Assembly: GCF_000763385.1 (NCBI RefSeq)
Contig: NZ_JQFA01000004.1
Coordinates: 682,001 to 746,000, forward strand
Origin: Leptolyngbya sp. KIOST-1
Lineage (GTDB): Bacteria > Cyanobacteriota > Cyanobacteriia > Phormidesmidales > Phormidesmidaceae
Length of the DNA stretch: 64,000 nucleotides
Direction: 5' to 3'
The notes beneath the pieces were generated by a model, which was given only the letters and a program-made list of their open reading frames with translations, was not told where the DNA came from and searched no databases. Below are positions 5,960 through 52,498 of this stretch, piece after piece (position 1 is the stretch's first letter; each line of letters opens with the position of its first letter). Made by a program: the position numbers and the translations under genes.

Positions 5960-7192
5960 ATGCCCCAGGCCCACCCCAACCTTCCCCCGGCTCAGTTTGA
6001 GAGCATCTACCGGGGCATTAGCGAGGTCTTCCCGGATCAGCCCAGATCCAGCGACCCTGAGCAAAACCTGGTTCAGCGGCTGCTCCAGAGCGATCGCCCG
6101 CTGCGGGTCAAGCTGGGCATCGATCCCACCGGGGCCGAAATCCACCTGGGCCACAGCATTCCGGTGCGCAAGCTGCGAGCTTTCCAGGATGCGGGCCACA
6201 CCGCTGTGCTGATCATCGGCGACTTTACCGCCCGCATTGGGGACCCCACCGGCAAGTCGGAGGTGCGCCGCCAGCTCAGCGAAGCCGACGTCCAGGCCAA
6301 TGCCAAAACCTACCTGGAGCAGGTGCGCCCCATTCTCGATTTTGATACCCCAGGGCGGCTGGAGGTGCGCTACAACTCCGAGTGGCTTTCGAGCCTGGAT
6401 CTGGGCAAAATTCTGGAGCTGCTCAGCACCATGACCGTAGGGCAGATGCTGGCCAAGGAGGGGTTTTCCGAGCGCTACGGCAAGGGCGACCCGGTGTTCC
6501 TCCACGAGTTTCTCTATCCCCTCATGCAGGGCTACGACTCGGTGGCGGTGCAGTCGGATGTTGAGCTGGGCGGCACCGACCAGAAATTTAACATTGCCGT
6601 TGGCCGCGATCTACAGCGGCACTTTGGCCTGCGGCCCCAGTTTGGCCTGCTGCTGCCCCTGCTGCTGGGCACCGACGGCAGCCAAAAAATGTCAAAGTCC
6701 CTGGGCAACTACGTGGGCCTACAGGAAGACCCGCTCAGCATGTACTCCAAGCTCGAAAAAGTGCCCGATGCCCTGATTGGCGACTACGTTGAGCTGCTGA
6801 CCGCCTTTGACCTCGCCACGCTGCCCGAAAATCCGCGCGATCGCCAAAAGATGCTGGCCCTGGAGGTCACTCGTCAGTTCCACGGGGCGGCGGCGGCCCA
6901 GCAGGCCCAGCAGGCCGCCATCAGCCTGGTGCAGGGAACCGGCGAAACAGCAACCGGCGTACCCGAGTTTTCCCTGGCCGGGATCAACTTCCCGGCCAAG
7001 CTGTTTTACCTGGTGGGGGCCACCGGGCTGTGTGCCAGCAGCAGCGAGGCCCGCCGCCAAATTCAGGGAGGGGCGGTCAAACTGGATGGGGAAAAGGTGA
7101 CCGACCCCAACCAGGAACTGGCCGACCCCGAGGCCCTGGTGGGCAAAGTGGTGCAGGTGGGCAAGAAAAAGTTTGCCCGGCTGGTTCCCTAG
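5960..7192 (+). CDS. tyrS: Tyrosyl-tRNA synthetase
   Basis: Class I aminoacyl-tRNA synthetase of 410 residues. HLGH at residues 62-65 is the HIGH signature, QKMSKSLGN near residue 242 is the KMSKS loop, and the C-terminal 70 residues ([22 protein letters not shown]) are an S4 RNA-binding domain. The frame is open for 59 codons upstream, but that part is Pro/Cys-rich and unlike any TyrRS, and the conserved protein begins at the ATG at 5960. The stop codon TAG lies inside the CTAG end of a 59-bp inverted-repeat element, so the element sets the last bases of the gene. Confidence 0.95.
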
Positions 7193-7247
7193 GGGCTGTC
7201 ATCAATTGGCTTTGAGAAGTCCCAGCACTAACCGTTACAGCCCCTAG
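7189..7247. mobile_element. 59-bp MITE-like element, copy A
   Basis: The element runs CTAGGGGCTGT ... ACAGCCCCTAG, with 11-bp perfect terminal inverted repeats including a CTAG at each end. A second element of exactly 59 bp with the same ends is at 34631-34689 in the opposite orientation. The first 19 bases (CTAGGGGCTGTCATCAATT) are identical and the middle differs. CTAG fits the YTAR target duplication of IS5-family transposons, so these could be IS5-related MITEs; that is inference. The tyrS stop (7190-7192) and the linker gene stop (7244-7246) both fall in the CTAG ends. The stem could also act as a bidirectional terminator. Confidence 0.6.
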
Positions 7248-7981
7248 CGGGCGGGCTGCATCAGCAGATGGCGGAGCTTGTCGCGATCGGCGACGGAGAG
7301 CGTGGAGGCAAATTTTTCTAAGTCCTGGGGTCCCATGGTGCTCAGCACCTGGTGCAGCGCGTCTAGCCCCGGAGTCGCTGCCGAGGACGCAGCAGTGGAG
7401 CCAGGTAAACTACAGCTGCCGCCATCGCAGTTCAGCCTCAGATCGTGCCAGATCATCGTGGGGACAATCCAGCCCCGCCGTCCGTGCAGCTCGTGGAGCA
7501 ACACTTCGGTTTCCCAGAAGGTTTTGGGTGAGGGATAGCTTTCCTCGGCCCAGGCGTGGGGCACCGTGAAGCAGCCGAAGTGGCGCAGGTAATCCTCAGA
7601 ATCGAGCAGGGCCGTAATCATGGCTTTTACGCCCTGGCGCATCAAAATGTCGCAGTAATCGTGCATTTCATTCTGGCCGCTGGGAGCACGGCCAATAAAG
7701 TGTTTGAAGCAAAGCTCGATAAATTTAGGGTTTGAAGAGTTGTAGTAAAACTCGTTGAGATAGACCTCGGAATGGCCCAGTTCGCGCAGAAACCGCTTGA
7801 CGCCAATTTTATTGCGCAGAAATTCCGATTCAATTTTGGCCAACTGCTTACGCTCAAATCCGTAGGGCTGCCGTTCTAAAACCTGGGCGTAGATCTGGTG
7901 CAGAGCCGCCTGGCGTTCTTCCCCCGCAGACTGCCGACTCACCGTAATTTCTCTAATTGAAAACTCATCGTTAGACGTCAT
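7244..7981 (-). CDS. Phycobilisome linker-domain protein
   Basis: A 245-residue protein whose residues about 25-160 are a PBS linker domain (PF00427): ALHQIYAQVLERQPYGFER, FLRELGHSEVYLNEFYY, FIELCFKHFIGRAP and DSEDYLRHFGCFTVP are the recurring blocks of the fold. Such domains hold phycobiliprotein hexamers or core cylinders together. The N terminus lacks the usual CpcG opening, and the last 70 residues, with a Ser/Ala linker followed by a short helical end, match no rod or core linker I know. It is therefore called by domain only. The stop TAG lies in the end of the 59-bp element it shares with tyrS. Confidence 0.8.
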   Translation of the reverse strand: MTSNDEFSIREITVSRQSAGEERQAALHQIYAQVLERQPYGFERKQLAKIESEFLRNKIGVKRFLRELGHSEVYLNEFYYNSSNPKFIELCFKHFIGRAPSGQNEMHDYCDILMRQGVKAMITALLDSEDYLRHFGCFTVPHAWAEESYPSPKTFWETEVLLHELHGRRGWIVPTMIWHDLRLNCDGGSCSLPGSTAASSAATPGLDALHQVLSTMGPQDLEKFASTLSVADRDKLRHLLMQPAR

Positions 7982-29609: not shown

Positions 29610-30848
29610 TTAAGGGCGCAGCAGCAGATAGTATAGGCGCCCCGGGGTGTTGATGCGCCCAGCCAGTTCTCCCGCCTGGGGGCCCGTGCCAATGAACATA
29701 TCGACCCGGCCCGGGCCCAGGATCGCTCCGCCCGTATCCTGGTCGAGCACCAGGCGGGTAGTGGGCTGAGCGATCCAATCGCCCTGGGGCGTCGGCTGAG
29801 GAAGCGGCACCTGAATGATGGCGGCGGCTCCCGGAGGCAGTAGCGACTTGTCAGTGGCGATGGAGTAGCCTGCAGTTACCGGCACGCTGAGACTGCCTGT
29901 GGGCGGCCCACCGCTGCCCTCACGAAAGAAAATAAACCGCTCGTTCTGGGGCAGATACCGATCCAGATCCTCGGGATGGGCCTTAAAGTAGGCGATTAAG
30001 TTGGGCAGCGACAGCGTTTCTGGGTCGATTTTGCCGTCGTTTACCAGGGCGCGGCCAATGCTGGTGTAGGGATACTCGGTGCGGCCTGCGTAGCCCACCG
30101 ACAGCTCCCGACCATCGGTGAGCTGTAGCCTGGCGGACCCCTGCACCTGAACCAAAAAGGCTTCTAGCCGGTCGGCCAGCCACACCAGCTCCAGCCCTGC
30201 CAGGGGACCTTGGCTACCCGCCAACCCATCGCCCCCTTCCAGCTCCAGGCGAGTGGGGTGGGGCTGGGGCCAGCTCTCCAGGCCGGGCGGGCGGCGGTAG
30301 AGGGGATAGCGAAACTCGGCGGTGGGGACGAGGTTGGCCCGGTACTGGGGTTCAAAGTACCCCGTATAGGCAACGGTGCCGTTGCCGTCGGTACCGATGG
30401 ATTCGTAGAGGACAAATTCGCGTCGCAGGGCCGTTTGGAAGACCTGGCTGCTGGGACTGGTGGCGACCAGCTGGCGCAGGCGCTGTAGACTACGCCACAC
30501 GCGATCGCGGGTAATGCCCGGCACGGGGTGGTTCTGATAGTCCTGGGCAGCCTTGGGCGTGGCCAGGTAGGCCAGGCTGTGGTTAATGGCCTGGAGGAAC
30601 GCCTGGCGATCGCCGGGCAGCATGAGGGTGGGCCAGATGGCTTCCGCTGCGGTCGCCGCAACGGGGCGCAGGGGTACCTCGACTGGGGCCTGACTGGCCG
30701 CGATCGAGGTGTCCAGTGCGGACGGCTGATCTGCTCTAGCCAGGGCAGAGCGCGGCAGCACCCATCCGAGGGGGATCAGAGCTATGGCTGTGCCCAGGCC
30801 CACAGCCCAGGTCCACCCCCTGGCGCTAAGTTGAAATCTATTACCCAT
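29610..30848 (-). CDS. mltA: Membrane-bound lytic transglycosylase A
   Basis: A 412-residue exported protein with a signal sequence, an MltA barrel (YTGYFEPQYRANLV, YPYTSIGRALVNDGKI, IFFREGSGGP) and a C-terminal 3D domain whose three aspartates are seen in RLVLDQDTGGAI and GRVDMFIG. It cleaves peptidoglycan glycan strands between MurNAc and GlcNAc, forming anhydro ends. The ATG overlaps the stop of the small gene upstream (TGATG), indicating coupled translation. Bases 30579-30763, covering the signal-peptide end and first mature residues, are present again, unchanged, inside the psbA locus at 45328-45512. Confidence 0.92.
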   Translation of the reverse strand: MGNRFQLSARGWTWAVGLGTAIALIPLGWVLPRSALARADQPSALDTSIAASQAPVEVPLRPVAATAAEAIWPTLMLPGDRQAFLQAINHSLAYLATPKAAQDYQNHPVPGITRDRVWRSLQRLRQLVATSPSSQVFQTALRREFVLYESIGTDGNGTVAYTGYFEPQYRANLVPTAEFRYPLYRRPPGLESWPQPHPTRLELEGGDGLAGSQGPLAGLELVWLADRLEAFLVQVQGSARLQLTDGRELSVGYAGRTEYPYTSIGRALVNDGKIDPETLSLPNLIAYFKAHPEDLDRYLPQNERFIFFREGSGGPPTGSLSVPVTAGYSIATDKSLLPPGAAAIIQVPLPQPTPQGDWIAQPTTRLVLDQDTGGAILGPGRVDMFIGTGPQAGELAGRINTPGRLYYLLLRP

Positions 30849-34320: not shown

Positions 34321-34710
34321 GAATCTCTCGGGATTGGAAAAGCATGGAACATCGGTCTAAAAAATTACAGATGCGCCTCGGGGTAGAGCATTGACCTGAG
34401 ATTCCTCTAATAGTAATGAACTCTCTTCGAAATCGTCACGATGGGTGGGCCACCTGATCTGCGGAATCTCGGCGTGGTACAAGCCGGAAGTAGCTTTAGT
34501 TTGCCCGGAAACGAGATCAGATTTCGCCTCCGACAATGTTCTTCGGTCTAAATTTTCCCTAGAGCGTGTCATCCATTACGGTCAAAAGCTCGGTATACCA
34601 AGCTTTGCCATGTCCGACCCAAACAACAGGCTAGGGGCTGTAGCCCTTAATTTTTGGGCATTTGGCAGCTAATTGATGACAGCCCCTAGTCTGAATTTCT
34701 GGGGCATGGA
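34321..34710. other. Gene-free interval with MITE copy B
   Basis: 390 bases between the MBL hydrolase start and the surE stop. Apart from the 59-bp element at 34631-34689, nothing is recognised. Short open frames here have no coding character. Confidence 0.4.
34631..34689. mobile_element. 59-bp MITE-like element, copy B
   Basis: It has the same length and terminal sequence as the element at 7189-7247, but is inverted relative to it. Read on the minus strand it begins CTAGGGGCTGTCATCAATT and ends ACAGCCCCTAG. The interior (about 28 bases) differs from copy A, being richer in A/T. It lies 22 bases downstream of the surE stop. Confidence 0.6.
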
Positions 34711-35538
34711 CTACTCTGGCAGCAGAGAGCGTCGCCCCTCGGCCAAATCTAGCAGATCGCCCACGGCGGTCAGGTTGTATTGCAGGGGTGTAACCGAAAT
34801 GTAGCGATCGTGAATGGCCTGGACGTCGGTGGGGATGGTGGCCAGGGACTGCTTGAGGGGCGGCGGCCAGCCCTGGTTAGGCAGGGGGTCTTCAATGTCG
34901 GCAATGGCCTCTCCGGCTAACCAGTAGTAGGTCTTACCCCGAGGGTCGAGGCGCTTTTCAAACTGATCAAAGTAGCGACGAATGCCCTGACGGGTGATTT
35001 TTGCTCCCCGGATGTCGCTGGCGGCGACCGCTGGCACGTTGATGTTGAGCAGTAGGGGGGCCGTAGCGGGAAAGCGATCGCGATCGGCCAGCAGGGCGCA
35101 AATGAAGTCAGCGGCGGGGGTAAAGCTGCCCTGGGTAAAGCTGGTCAGGCTGACGGCGATGGACGGGATGCCCTCCATCACCCCCTCCATCGCCGCCGAC
35201 ACCGTGCCCGAATAGACCACGTCGGTACCCAGATTGGCTCCGTGGTTGATGCCCGATACCACCACGTCGGGCAGACTGGGCATCAGCGCCCCCAGGGCTA
35301 ATTTGACGCAGTCAGCGGGCGTCCCAGAACAGCTCCAGGCTTGAATGTTGTGCTCAAACAGGGAGTCTATCAACTCGGCCCGAATCGGTTTGTGCATCGT
35401 CAGTCCGTGACCGGTGGCCGATCGCTCGCGATCGGGGCACACCACCGTGACCTGATGCCCGGCAGTCGCCAGAGCGGTAGCCAGAGTCCGCATACCCAGG
35501 GCAAAAATCCCGTCGTCGTTGCTGATCAGAATGTTCAT
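34711..35538 (-). CDS. surE: 5'/3'-nucleotidase SurE
   Basis: A 275-residue survival protein E, a metal-dependent phosphatase acting on nucleoside monophosphates. It opens [15 protein letters not shown] with the conserved NDDG metal site, followed by [26 protein letters not shown] and [21 protein letters not shown], all family signatures. It ends 22 bases before the 59-bp element. Confidence 0.95.
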
Positions 35539-37214: not shown

Positions 37215-38450
37215 ATGGCTCTCCTTCAAACCCTTAGCATCAATGGCAAGCGACTCAACCAAAGTATTGACGACCTGGCCCAGATCGGGCGATTGGAAAA
37301 CGGCGGTATCTGTCGGTTGGCCTTTAGCCCAGAAGATGTTCAGGGCCGAGAACTGGTGCGTCGGTGGATGGTAGAAGCGGGGTTGAGCACCTGTATTGAT
37401 ACCGCAGGCAACCTGATTGGCCGTCGTCCCGGCCGCCTTCATGCCCCGGCGATTGCCACTGGGTCCCATATCGATACAGTGCCCTGTGGCGGCAAATTCG
37501 ACGGCAATCTGGGCGTGCTGGCTGGCATTGAGGTCGCCCGCACCCTACAGGAGAATAATGTCATCCTCGACCACCCGTTTGAGGTAATCGTCTTCGCCGA
37601 TGAAGAGGACACCATGATTGGCGGGCGAGCCATGGCCGGAACGGCCTCCCTCAAGGCCAGCGACTACCATCGCAAAGATGGTCGCCCCATTGACGACTGT
37701 GTGAACGGGGCTGGCGGCAATTGGGACCAACTCGAGCTGTCTAGGCGCACCCGAGACGACATCTGTGCCTTTGTCGAACTCCATGTCGAGCAGGGCGGCG
37801 TGCTGGAAACGGCCAAAAAACAGATTGGTGTCGTGCAGGGCATCGTTGGTATGCAGCGGTACCAGATTCACATTACTGGGCGACCTAACCATGCCGGCAC
37901 CACGCCGATGGGACAGCGCCAGGACGCACTGGTGGCTGCCGCCCAGATTGTTCTGGCGGTCAACCGCCTGGGCATCCGCCCCCCTGGGCAGCAGGTGGCC
38001 ACCGTGGGCGCCCTACAGGTGTGGCCCAATGCCGCCAATATTGTGCCAGGTCAGGTGCAGTGCAGCCTTGACGTGCGCGACCTCAACCAAGCTGTGATCG
38101 ATGACCTGGTTCACGACCTGAAAGAAGAACTGGTGCTGATCGCCCGGTCAACAGATACCACCATTGAAATTGTGCCGCAGCTCAACGTGGCTCCATGTCC
38201 TGCCGCCCCTCACATTCAGGCCATGATCGCGGAGGTGAGCGATCGCTTTGGCCTCAGCCATATGCCCATGCCCAGTCGAGCGGGCCACGACGCCCTGGAA
38301 ATGGGCCGCTTCACCGATATGGGGATGATTTTTGTGCCCAGCGAGGGGGGCTTCAGCCATTCGGAGGTCGAGTACACCACTCCCGAGGAGTGTGTGAACG
38401 GGGCCAACGTCCTGCTGGAGACCGTTTTGCGCCTCGATCGCCACTACTGA
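37215..38450 (+). CDS. M20-family amidohydrolase (hydantoinase/carbamoylase type)
   Basis: A 411-residue zinc hydrolase of the group holding N-carbamoyl-L-amino-acid hydrolase, allantoate amidohydrolase and beta-ureidopropionase. Metal ligands are seen in TGSHIDTVPCGGKFDGNLG, FADEED and ELHVEQGG. The dimer-lid contact [15 protein letters not shown] and the C-terminal SRAGHDALEMGR are also present. It removes carbamoyl groups from ureido compounds, releasing ammonia and CO2; which substrate is not clear. Bases 37757-37981 of this gene are repeated exactly at 45103-45327 inside the psbA locus. Confidence 0.88.
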   Translation: MALLQTLSINGKRLNQSIDDLAQIGRLENGGICRLAFSPEDVQGRELVRRWMVEAGLSTCIDTAGNLIGRRPGRLHAPAIATGSHIDTVPCGGKFDGNLGVLAGIEVARTLQENNVILDHPFEVIVFADEEDTMIGGRAMAGTASLKASDYHRKDGRPIDDCVNGAGGNWDQLELSRRTRDDICAFVELHVEQGGVLETAKKQIGVVQGIVGMQRYQIHITGRPNHAGTTPMGQRQDALVAAAQIVLAVNRLGIRPPGQQVATVGALQVWPNAANIVPGQVQCSLDVRDLNQAVIDDLVHDLKEELVLIARSTDTTIEIVPQLNVAPCPAAPHIQAMIAEVSDRFGLSHMPMPSRAGHDALEMGRFTDMGMIFVPSEGGFSHSEVEYTTPEECVNGANVLLETVLRLDRHY

Positions 38451-43424: not shown

Positions 43425-45102
<1,678 letters not shown>

Positions 45103-45108
<6 letters not shown>

Positions 45109-45327
45109 CTGTGCCTTTGTCGAACTCCATGTCGAGCAGGGCGGCGTGCTGGAAACGGCCAAAAAACAGATTGGTGTCGTGCAGGGCATCGTTGGTATGC
45201 AGCGGTACCAGATTCACATTACTGGGCGACCTAACCATGCCGGCACCACGCCGATGGGACAGCGCCAGGACGCACTGGTGGCTGCCGCCCAGATTGTTCT
45301 GGCGGTCAACCGCCTGGGCATCCGCCC
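45103..45327 (+). repeat. Exact 225-bp copy of the amidohydrolase gene inside psbA
   Basis: Same strand and same sequence as 37757-37981, 7346 bases away. At its left end only one base (A) could be shared with psbA; at its right end it meets the mltA fragment without shared bases. It lies antisense to the psbA frame. Confidence 0.92.
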
Positions 45328-45512
45328 GTGGTTAATGGCCTGGAGGAACGCCTGGCGATCGCCGGGCAGCATGAGGGTGGGCCAGATGGCTTCCGCTGCG
45401 GTCGCCGCAACGGGGCGCAGGGGTACCTCGACTGGGGCCTGACTGGCCGCGATCGAGGTGTCCAGTGCGGACGGCTGATCTGCTCTAGCCAGGGCAGAGC
45501 GCGGCAGCACCC
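45328..45512 (+). repeat. Exact 185-bp copy of mltA inside psbA
   Basis: Same strand and sequence as 30579-30763, 14,749 bases away. At the right junction four bases (ACCC) are common to mltA and psbA; the left junction with the amidohydrolase piece has none. Confidence 0.92.
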
Positions 45513-45600
45513 CGAACCAGCCCACGTACAGGCGGTTCTCGGTGCTGGTGACCCACTGGCAAAACTGCTCCCACAGGGAGGCAGATTGTTGACGTTGTAA
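45509..45600 (-). repeat. 92-bp psbA 5' duplication, outer copy
   Basis: Copy of 45011-45102 connected to the native start codon, leader and promoter. The two copies bracket the inserted mltA and amidohydrolase fragments. Confidence 0.9.
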
Positions 45601-52193: not shown

Positions 52194-52498
52194 GAGGGTT
52201 TCCTTTAGGTTGGTTAGGACTAAGTAATTCCGTAGAGGCGCACGGTTCCCACAGGGGCAAGTAGCATTCGCCCATGGGGGATCAGGCTGGCTTCGGAATG
52301 ACCGAACAACAACGTGGATCGTACAGGGATAAACCGCCTCTGCTTTCTCCCCAATGGGTGGTGGGCAGTGCCCCTCCTACGATGGCTGTAGGGGCAAACG
52401 ACATTGCCCTCAGAGAATTGAGCTAGGGGAAATCTATATAACGGTATGGATTGGGTAAGGGCAAACAACCGTTTGCCCCTACGAACGGCTATAACGGG
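52194..52498. other. Gap between trxA and the OYE gene with dispersed palindromes
   Basis: 305 bases. It carries a GTAGGGGCAAACG half-site near 52389 and the full palindrome GGGCAAAC/GTTTGCCC at 52459-52478. No gene is seen; the short minus-strand frame here is not coding. Confidence 0.4.
52459..52479. repeat. Dispersed palindrome, second copy
   Basis: GGGCAAAC-aacc-GTTTGCCCC followed by TACGAA; see the copy at 864-885. Confidence 0.5.

Follow-up and report, generated by a model that had tools for sequence, protein, structure and literature searches.

The window, a 64-kb stretch of the genome of Leptolyngbya sp. KIOST-1 (hereafter the host), carries tyrS and a phycobilisome-linker-domain gene in convergent orientation, with a short repeat lodged exactly between their stop codons (Table 1). 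The site reads CTAG-GGGCTGTCATCAATT...TTACAGCCC-CTAG over positions 7189-7247. The first G of the repeat completes the tyrS stop and its last C completes the linker stop, so that the TAG of each CTAG end terminates one of the two genes, as an earlier note on this DNA had stated; the codons lie at 7190-7192 and in the complement of 7244-7246. The same note described two 59-bp elements, one here and one at 34631-34689, and proposed a genome-wide search with their ends, a comparison of the junction with relatives and a search for an IS5 transposase with matching ends. The sequences, coordinates and ends of the two stretches hold: both contain the 19 bases CTAGGGGCTGTCATCAATT and both are bounded by the 11-bp perfect inverted repeat CTAGGGGCTGT. 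The length assigned to the element does not, since the copy at 7189 is a left module only and the copy at 34.6 kb is a 125-bp element. The latter adjoins a gene which we take to be surE. Among 24 congener surE loci, the 400 bases following the gene held no end motif at up to 4 mismatches except in G004, where one weak match lies 383 bases after surE and outside the intergenic space (a 25th locus was left out because its sequence ends too soon).

Table 1. Coordinates of the genes and element parts at the two element sites of the window.
Feature	Position	Strand	Basis and remarks
tyrS (tyrosyl-tRNA synthetase)	5960..7192	+	Pfam tRNA-synt_1b 1.8e-76 and S4 domain; ends KKKFARLVP-stop; stop TAG 7190-7192
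Left TA of duplicated target, within tyrS stop	7190..7191		TA flanks family-wide
53-bp left module of MITE, without right module	7192..7244	+	Sequence; consensus layout of copies
Right TA, within linker stop (- strand)	7245..7246		Sequence
Phycobilisome-linker-domain gene	7244..7981	-	PBS_linker_poly 1.2e-37; ends MQPAR-stop; stop TAG 7244-7246
Full-length 125-bp MITE copy	34562..34686	-	Left end 34686, right end 34562; 92% to consensus
TA flanks of the full-length copy	34560-34561 and 34687-34688		Sequence
Second 59-bp stretch of the earlier note (covers the left module of the 125-bp copy and adjoining bases)	34631..34689	-	Sequence
surE-like gene adjoining the full copy	34711..35538	-	Name from sequence

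The window contains repeats of other kinds as well. A palindrome-containing repeat, GGGCAAACGGCCGTTTGCCCCTACGA, is present in two copies that are 92% alike (865-890 and 52459-52484), and direct repeats of 96-300 nt, perfect or nearly so, pair 43433-43732 with 44064-44363, 37756-37981 with 45102-45327, 30579-30763 with 45328-45512, and 45007-45102 with 45505-45600. Those near 43.4-45.6 kb join pieces of distant parts of the window, as would result from either gene-fragment duplication or an assembly chimera. Rfam gave no match in the 64-kb window at gathering scores.

A usual copy of the element consists of two hairpin modules within 16-bp outer terminal repeats, each module being bounded by a separate inverted repeat. 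Module 1 is GGGGCTGT...ACAGCCCC-TAG and module 2 comprises about 70 bases ending GGGCGTG...CACGCCC. The outer ends form the terminal inverted repeats expected of a MITE and yet differ from each other, with family forms GGGGCTGTCATCAATT on the left and GGGCGTGTCATCAATT on the right. A search of the 6.32-Mb host genome with the 16-base left end, allowing 2 mismatches, gave 195 matches (left and right ends together, many of them right), against 2 for a reversed-pattern control, and the end repeat is therefore not a product of chance; the right end has 88 matches at up to 1 mismatch. The genome-wide search thus finds further copies in quantity. We sorted 277 places with a left end into 208 full copies (67 in the host and 141 elsewhere) and two incomplete groups, 37 with the inner inverted end and no recognised right end, some of these being full copies whose right end is changed or distant, and 32 with neither. 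The length is exactly 125 bp in 108 of the 208 full copies, a set that includes a few palindromic double hits. Short, numerous and nearly fixed in length, the copies have the character of a MITE.

Within the genus, a consensus query matches 17 of 26 genomes and a left-end query 13 of 26, both counts including the host. The exact 18-base left end occurs in at least 120 stretches; among the 80 of these listed are records of Nodosilinea, Lyngbya, Kaiparowitsia, Stenomitos, Tildeniella, Leptolyngbya and other cyanobacteria. A plasmid collection gave no match. Some copies are joined to other repeats: in L004, L025 and L107 a second small repeat of the TATAGC / GCCATCGC type is nested inside the copy, bringing it to about 250 bp, and in L029, L100 and L111 the left module runs into another repeat with stretches like GGTTGGGTGGCGCGCTAGCAGAACCCAAC.

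TA flanks the element on both sides in 164 of the 208 full copies, that is in 131 of 141 copies elsewhere and 33 of 67 in the host. The targets rebuilt from these 164 (a count that again includes a few palindromic double hits) are CTAG in 110, CTAA in 43, TTAG in 7, GTAG in 2, TTAA in 1 and CTAC in 1. The 43 CTAA copies combine a left junction CTA|G with C|TAA on the right; in the 7 TTAG copies TTA|G on the left is paired with C|TAG on the right. Because the flanks of these copies are unlike, TA alone must be duplicated, and YTAR describes the target and not the duplication. The proposal that CTAG represents the 4-bp YTAR target duplication of IS5 elements is accordingly not supported.

These features lead us to read the 7189 feature as the 53-bp left module of a non-autonomous MITE, usually 125 bp long, whose insertion at the TA of CTAG rebuilds TAG stop codons (probability about 0.86). 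A transposase encoded elsewhere would spread the element through cyanobacterial genomes. Insertion is at the TA of CTAG, less often of CTAA or TTAG, with duplication of the TA only. CTAG reads TAG on both strands, and an element that begins with G and ends with C would convert it to C-TA-[G...C]-TA-G, with a TAG stop at each end. Insertion into the stop codon of a gene, or into the CTAG of two overlapping convergent stops, should then leave both proteins unchanged and allow the insertion to survive. The MITE-like mobile repeat suggested previously is in this respect borne out by the many copies, the CTAG-like target and the relatives that lack the element between tyrS and the linker gene. Against our reading stands the observation that only 33 of 67 host copies keep TA at both sides.

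The use of element ends as the stop codons of genes is a trait of the whole family and not of the tyrS/linker copy alone. For each end reading TAG, we measured the length of the open frame ending in that TAG and used the two out-of-phase frames as controls. A frame that stays open for 100 codons or more has its stop at one or both ends in 61 of 204 elements (23/66 in the host, 38/138 in others), compared with 10 and 11 in the control frames (5 and 6 in the host, 5 and 5 in others). The palindromic double hits are removed from this set and two left-only copies, both at stops, were added by hand (the tyrS/linker copy and L132); without these two the count is 59/202. Five of the 204 have stops of this kind at each end: the tyrS/linker copy, L022, L180, L189 and L312. 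Pfam domains were found in 25 of 28 scanned ORFs ending at an element, the 28 being a chosen subset, and some domains run close to the last residue (NadA to 331 of 334, FAA hydrolase to 261 of 265, DHOR to 485 of 485). In such cases the end of the gene coincides with the end of its protein family. In two cases, L177 with L180 (from G021 and G010) and L193 with L321, genes of different records stop at an element with almost identical final residues, which could reflect either shared old insertions or repeated ones.

We compared CTAG-target elements with unoccupied CTAG sites, retaining only CTAG targets with at least 480 bases of flank and dropping other targets and shorter flanks. Elements lie at stops in 8/16 cases in the host, against 66/389 unoccupied sites, and in 21/86 cases in others, against 164/1779, where the elements of the latter sample include congener loci and its background comes from genome-contig loci only. 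When sites open only in coding frames are removed, the 100-codon threshold gives p = 0.007 for the host and 21/82 against 164/903 (p = 0.07) for the others, and the 150-codon threshold gives 8/13 against 42/273 (p = 3e-4) and 21/84 against 89/1061 (p = 1.4e-5), respectively, with long open frames serving as a crude proxy for genes and copies being non-independent draws. In the wider sample the excess over non-coding CTAG is weak at 100 codons, which counts against our reading; it becomes clear at 150 codons, as it is in the host genome. A refinement towards which we lean somewhat is that the excess is purely passive and involves no transposase preference: CTAG is uncommon inside genes, insertions within genes would be lost, and stop codons would be what is left over. 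The weak excess at 100 codons fits this, as does the fact that CTAG by itself reads TAG on both strands, although the 150-codon comparison, for all the crudeness of its gene proxy, still places elements at stops more often than unoccupied CTAG.

The clearest case of filled and empty stop-codon sites is the gene pair encoding an FAA hydrolase and TIC20. In the host, a 125-bp element (consensus match C2:2659285-2659414) lies between the two genes and forms both stops. Of 21 congeners with both genes (four more were left out, having no TIC20 match), 11 show a four-base overlap of the stops (CTAG in 10, CTAA in 1) and 8 have stops 3-78 bases apart; in the remaining two, G017 and G007, the stops are separated by an element in the orientation opposite to that in the host. 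TIC20 ends ...AVHMQVR-stop in 22/22 genomes, host included. Filled and empty sites of this kind, together with the TA duplication in 164 of 208 copies, are as expected of a MITE. Compared with the other copies in the host, the element here reaches at most 91% identity (median 84%), and it shares 66% identity with its counterpart in G017 and 70% with that in G007, which are themselves 71% identical. Since these elements are dissimilar as well as opposite in orientation, the site has most likely been hit more than once, with an old inversion in place still conceivable as the source of the difference in orientation.

For the tyrS/linker junction we collected 30 linker loci, in 20 of which (the host and 19 congeners) tyrS lies convergent beside the linker gene. 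No element end was found between the two genes in any of the 19 congener loci at up to 4 mismatches. The stops overlap by 4 bases in G001, G014 and G015 and are 16-803 bases apart in the other 16. The host site was, we infer, once such an overlap. It tells against our reading that the closest congeners have 16-185 bp between the stops and that only these three more distant ones overlap.

These loci also bear on the interpretation given in the earlier note, in which the insertion made new stops and thereby set new C termini for both proteins. Each TAG does take one base from the element (G7192 and C7244), and the kind of stop may have changed, given that the three loci closest by linker identity (G017, G007 and G023) use TAA or TGA to end tyrS. 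The residues themselves refute it as far as the C termini are concerned: without any element, the linker protein ends MQPAR-stop in G017 and G007, at the same place as in the host, and TyrS ends FARLVP-stop in G017, G007 and G023, again as in the host. TAG, moreover, is already the linker stop in 15 of the 19 element-free loci and the tyrS stop in 11 of them. We therefore consider new C termini highly improbable and, to judge from these endings, the insertion at tyrS/linker left the residues unchanged.

How the 7189 copy came to lack its right module is a separate matter. The module was presumably lost by deletion between CCCTAG-like microhomologies, for which the inner CCCCTAG and the outer CCCTAG would serve, or else the left module moved alone. 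Deletion is favoured because a number of further left modules are truncated at different positions, as expected from decay. The converse view, that the 53-bp module is itself mobile and uses its inner inverted copy (ACAGCCCC-TAG) as a right end instead of being a remnant, is in our judgement unlikely. It would account for the perfect inverted ends and for the TA and rebuilt CTAG at both sides, and a second clean left-only copy, L132, is likewise at a stop codon, the gene in question encoding a tryptophan synthase alpha domain; clean left-only copies are, however, few beside 208 full ones. The inner TAG is found inside full copies too and so does not discriminate between the routes. The one candidate solo copy in a congener (G023) turned out to have a right end.

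We looked for a source of transposase among genes with suitable domains. The PF01609 (25 matches) and PF13340 (1 match) genes of the host, scanned as 26 loci, revealed no autonomous element with these ends, and no transposase between its own matching ends was found at 43 loci from five genomes, host included, carrying PF13358 (37 matches, 30 as loci) or PF13359 (13); this negative result tells against our reading. The IS5 transposase sought by the earlier note is accordingly missing from the PF01609, PF13340 and PF13359 loci examined, none of which has its gene between a pair of these ends. Element copies or remnants do occur near transposase loci L066, L071, L075, L085, L400 and L404. In L388 and L403 a DDE_3-type insertion sequence of the host lies inside an element copy (L228/L388 and L227/L403); that of L388, whose left flank is shared by L380, has its own TA-flanked inverted repeats inside the element ends. 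The 1324-bp insertion sequence of L403 was considered as a parent and rejected, because it recurs in L407 without element ends and so represents an independent insertion sequence. Elsewhere, open frames lie between pairs of ends spaced 0.3-4 kb apart, and by inspection none of these was recognised as a transposase.

Ends of the G-G-n-n-TGT type, as in this element, are IS5-like. The family nonetheless differs from IS5 in that no transposase gene of that kind was found between its ends at the loci scanned, and in that its copies do not show the 4-bp duplication which the earlier note gave for IS5. REP/RAYT repeats, which are single palindromes with a GTAG-type tag and a Y1 transposase, were also considered; the paired outer repeats and the TA duplication speak against them. 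The 2-bp TA duplication is shared with the IS427 group of the IS5 family, where Table 2 of PMC3281130 lists 2-bp direct repeats for most elements. Duplication of TA and a preference for CTAG are shared with IS630/Tc1-mariner elements and the MITEs they drive: ISY100 is reported to insert almost solely at TA, which is duplicated (PMC2170065), and a title cited there (Tenzen and Ohtsubo 1991) gives TA within 5'-CTAG-3' as the preference of IS630. The difference is that no IS630-type transposase was found with these ends as its own among the loci scanned. MITEPsy1 of Pseudomonas syringae, a 100-nt MITE, is described as inserting at CTAG or YTAA (PMC3189936), a similar target, whereas its duplication is of 4 nt, its ends are unrelated and the part of that source used here describes no association with stop codons. 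One copy of the 111-114 bp MITEAba12 of Acinetobacter, which makes 9-bp duplications, is reported to provide the stop codon of a gene (PMC6382973); it is thus also a short MITE supplying a stop, but it truncates the gene, whereas natural ends are kept here. No title or opening of an abstract found in our literature search describes MITEs that rebuild stop codons, which does not prove their absence from print, and a term search of the MITE review PMC10969869 found neither "stop codon" nor "CTAG".

The tyrS/linker copy has a strong hairpin on each strand (z = -3.1 and -4.2), and the element had been credited with forming a stem for termination. An intrinsic terminator combines a G+C-rich stem with a following T-run; here neither strand has a T-run following the stem, and a terminator scan scored no site there, so that this part of the earlier proposal is not sustained. 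That the element is kept as a bidirectional terminator between the convergent genes is improbable on these grounds and on account of the 19 congener loci with no element end between the same genes. The element may simply be tolerated, and we see no reason to assign it a function beyond that.

A stronger version of our reading, which we put forward tentatively and consider rather doubtful, is that of a mini-transposon that homes to stop codons, its ends and its CTAG targeting having been selected together. Repeated insertion, in either orientation, would then make the stops of packed and often overlapping convergent genes its regular safe harbour and would push such gene pairs apart. On our main reading, regeneration of the stop by target and ends together explains how a high-copy mobile element can spread through gene-dense bacterial genomes without damage, and offers a route, open to testing, for an intergenic spacer to arise between overlapping convergent genes. 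It also carries a warning, namely that element ends which serve as stop codons need not mean altered proteins.
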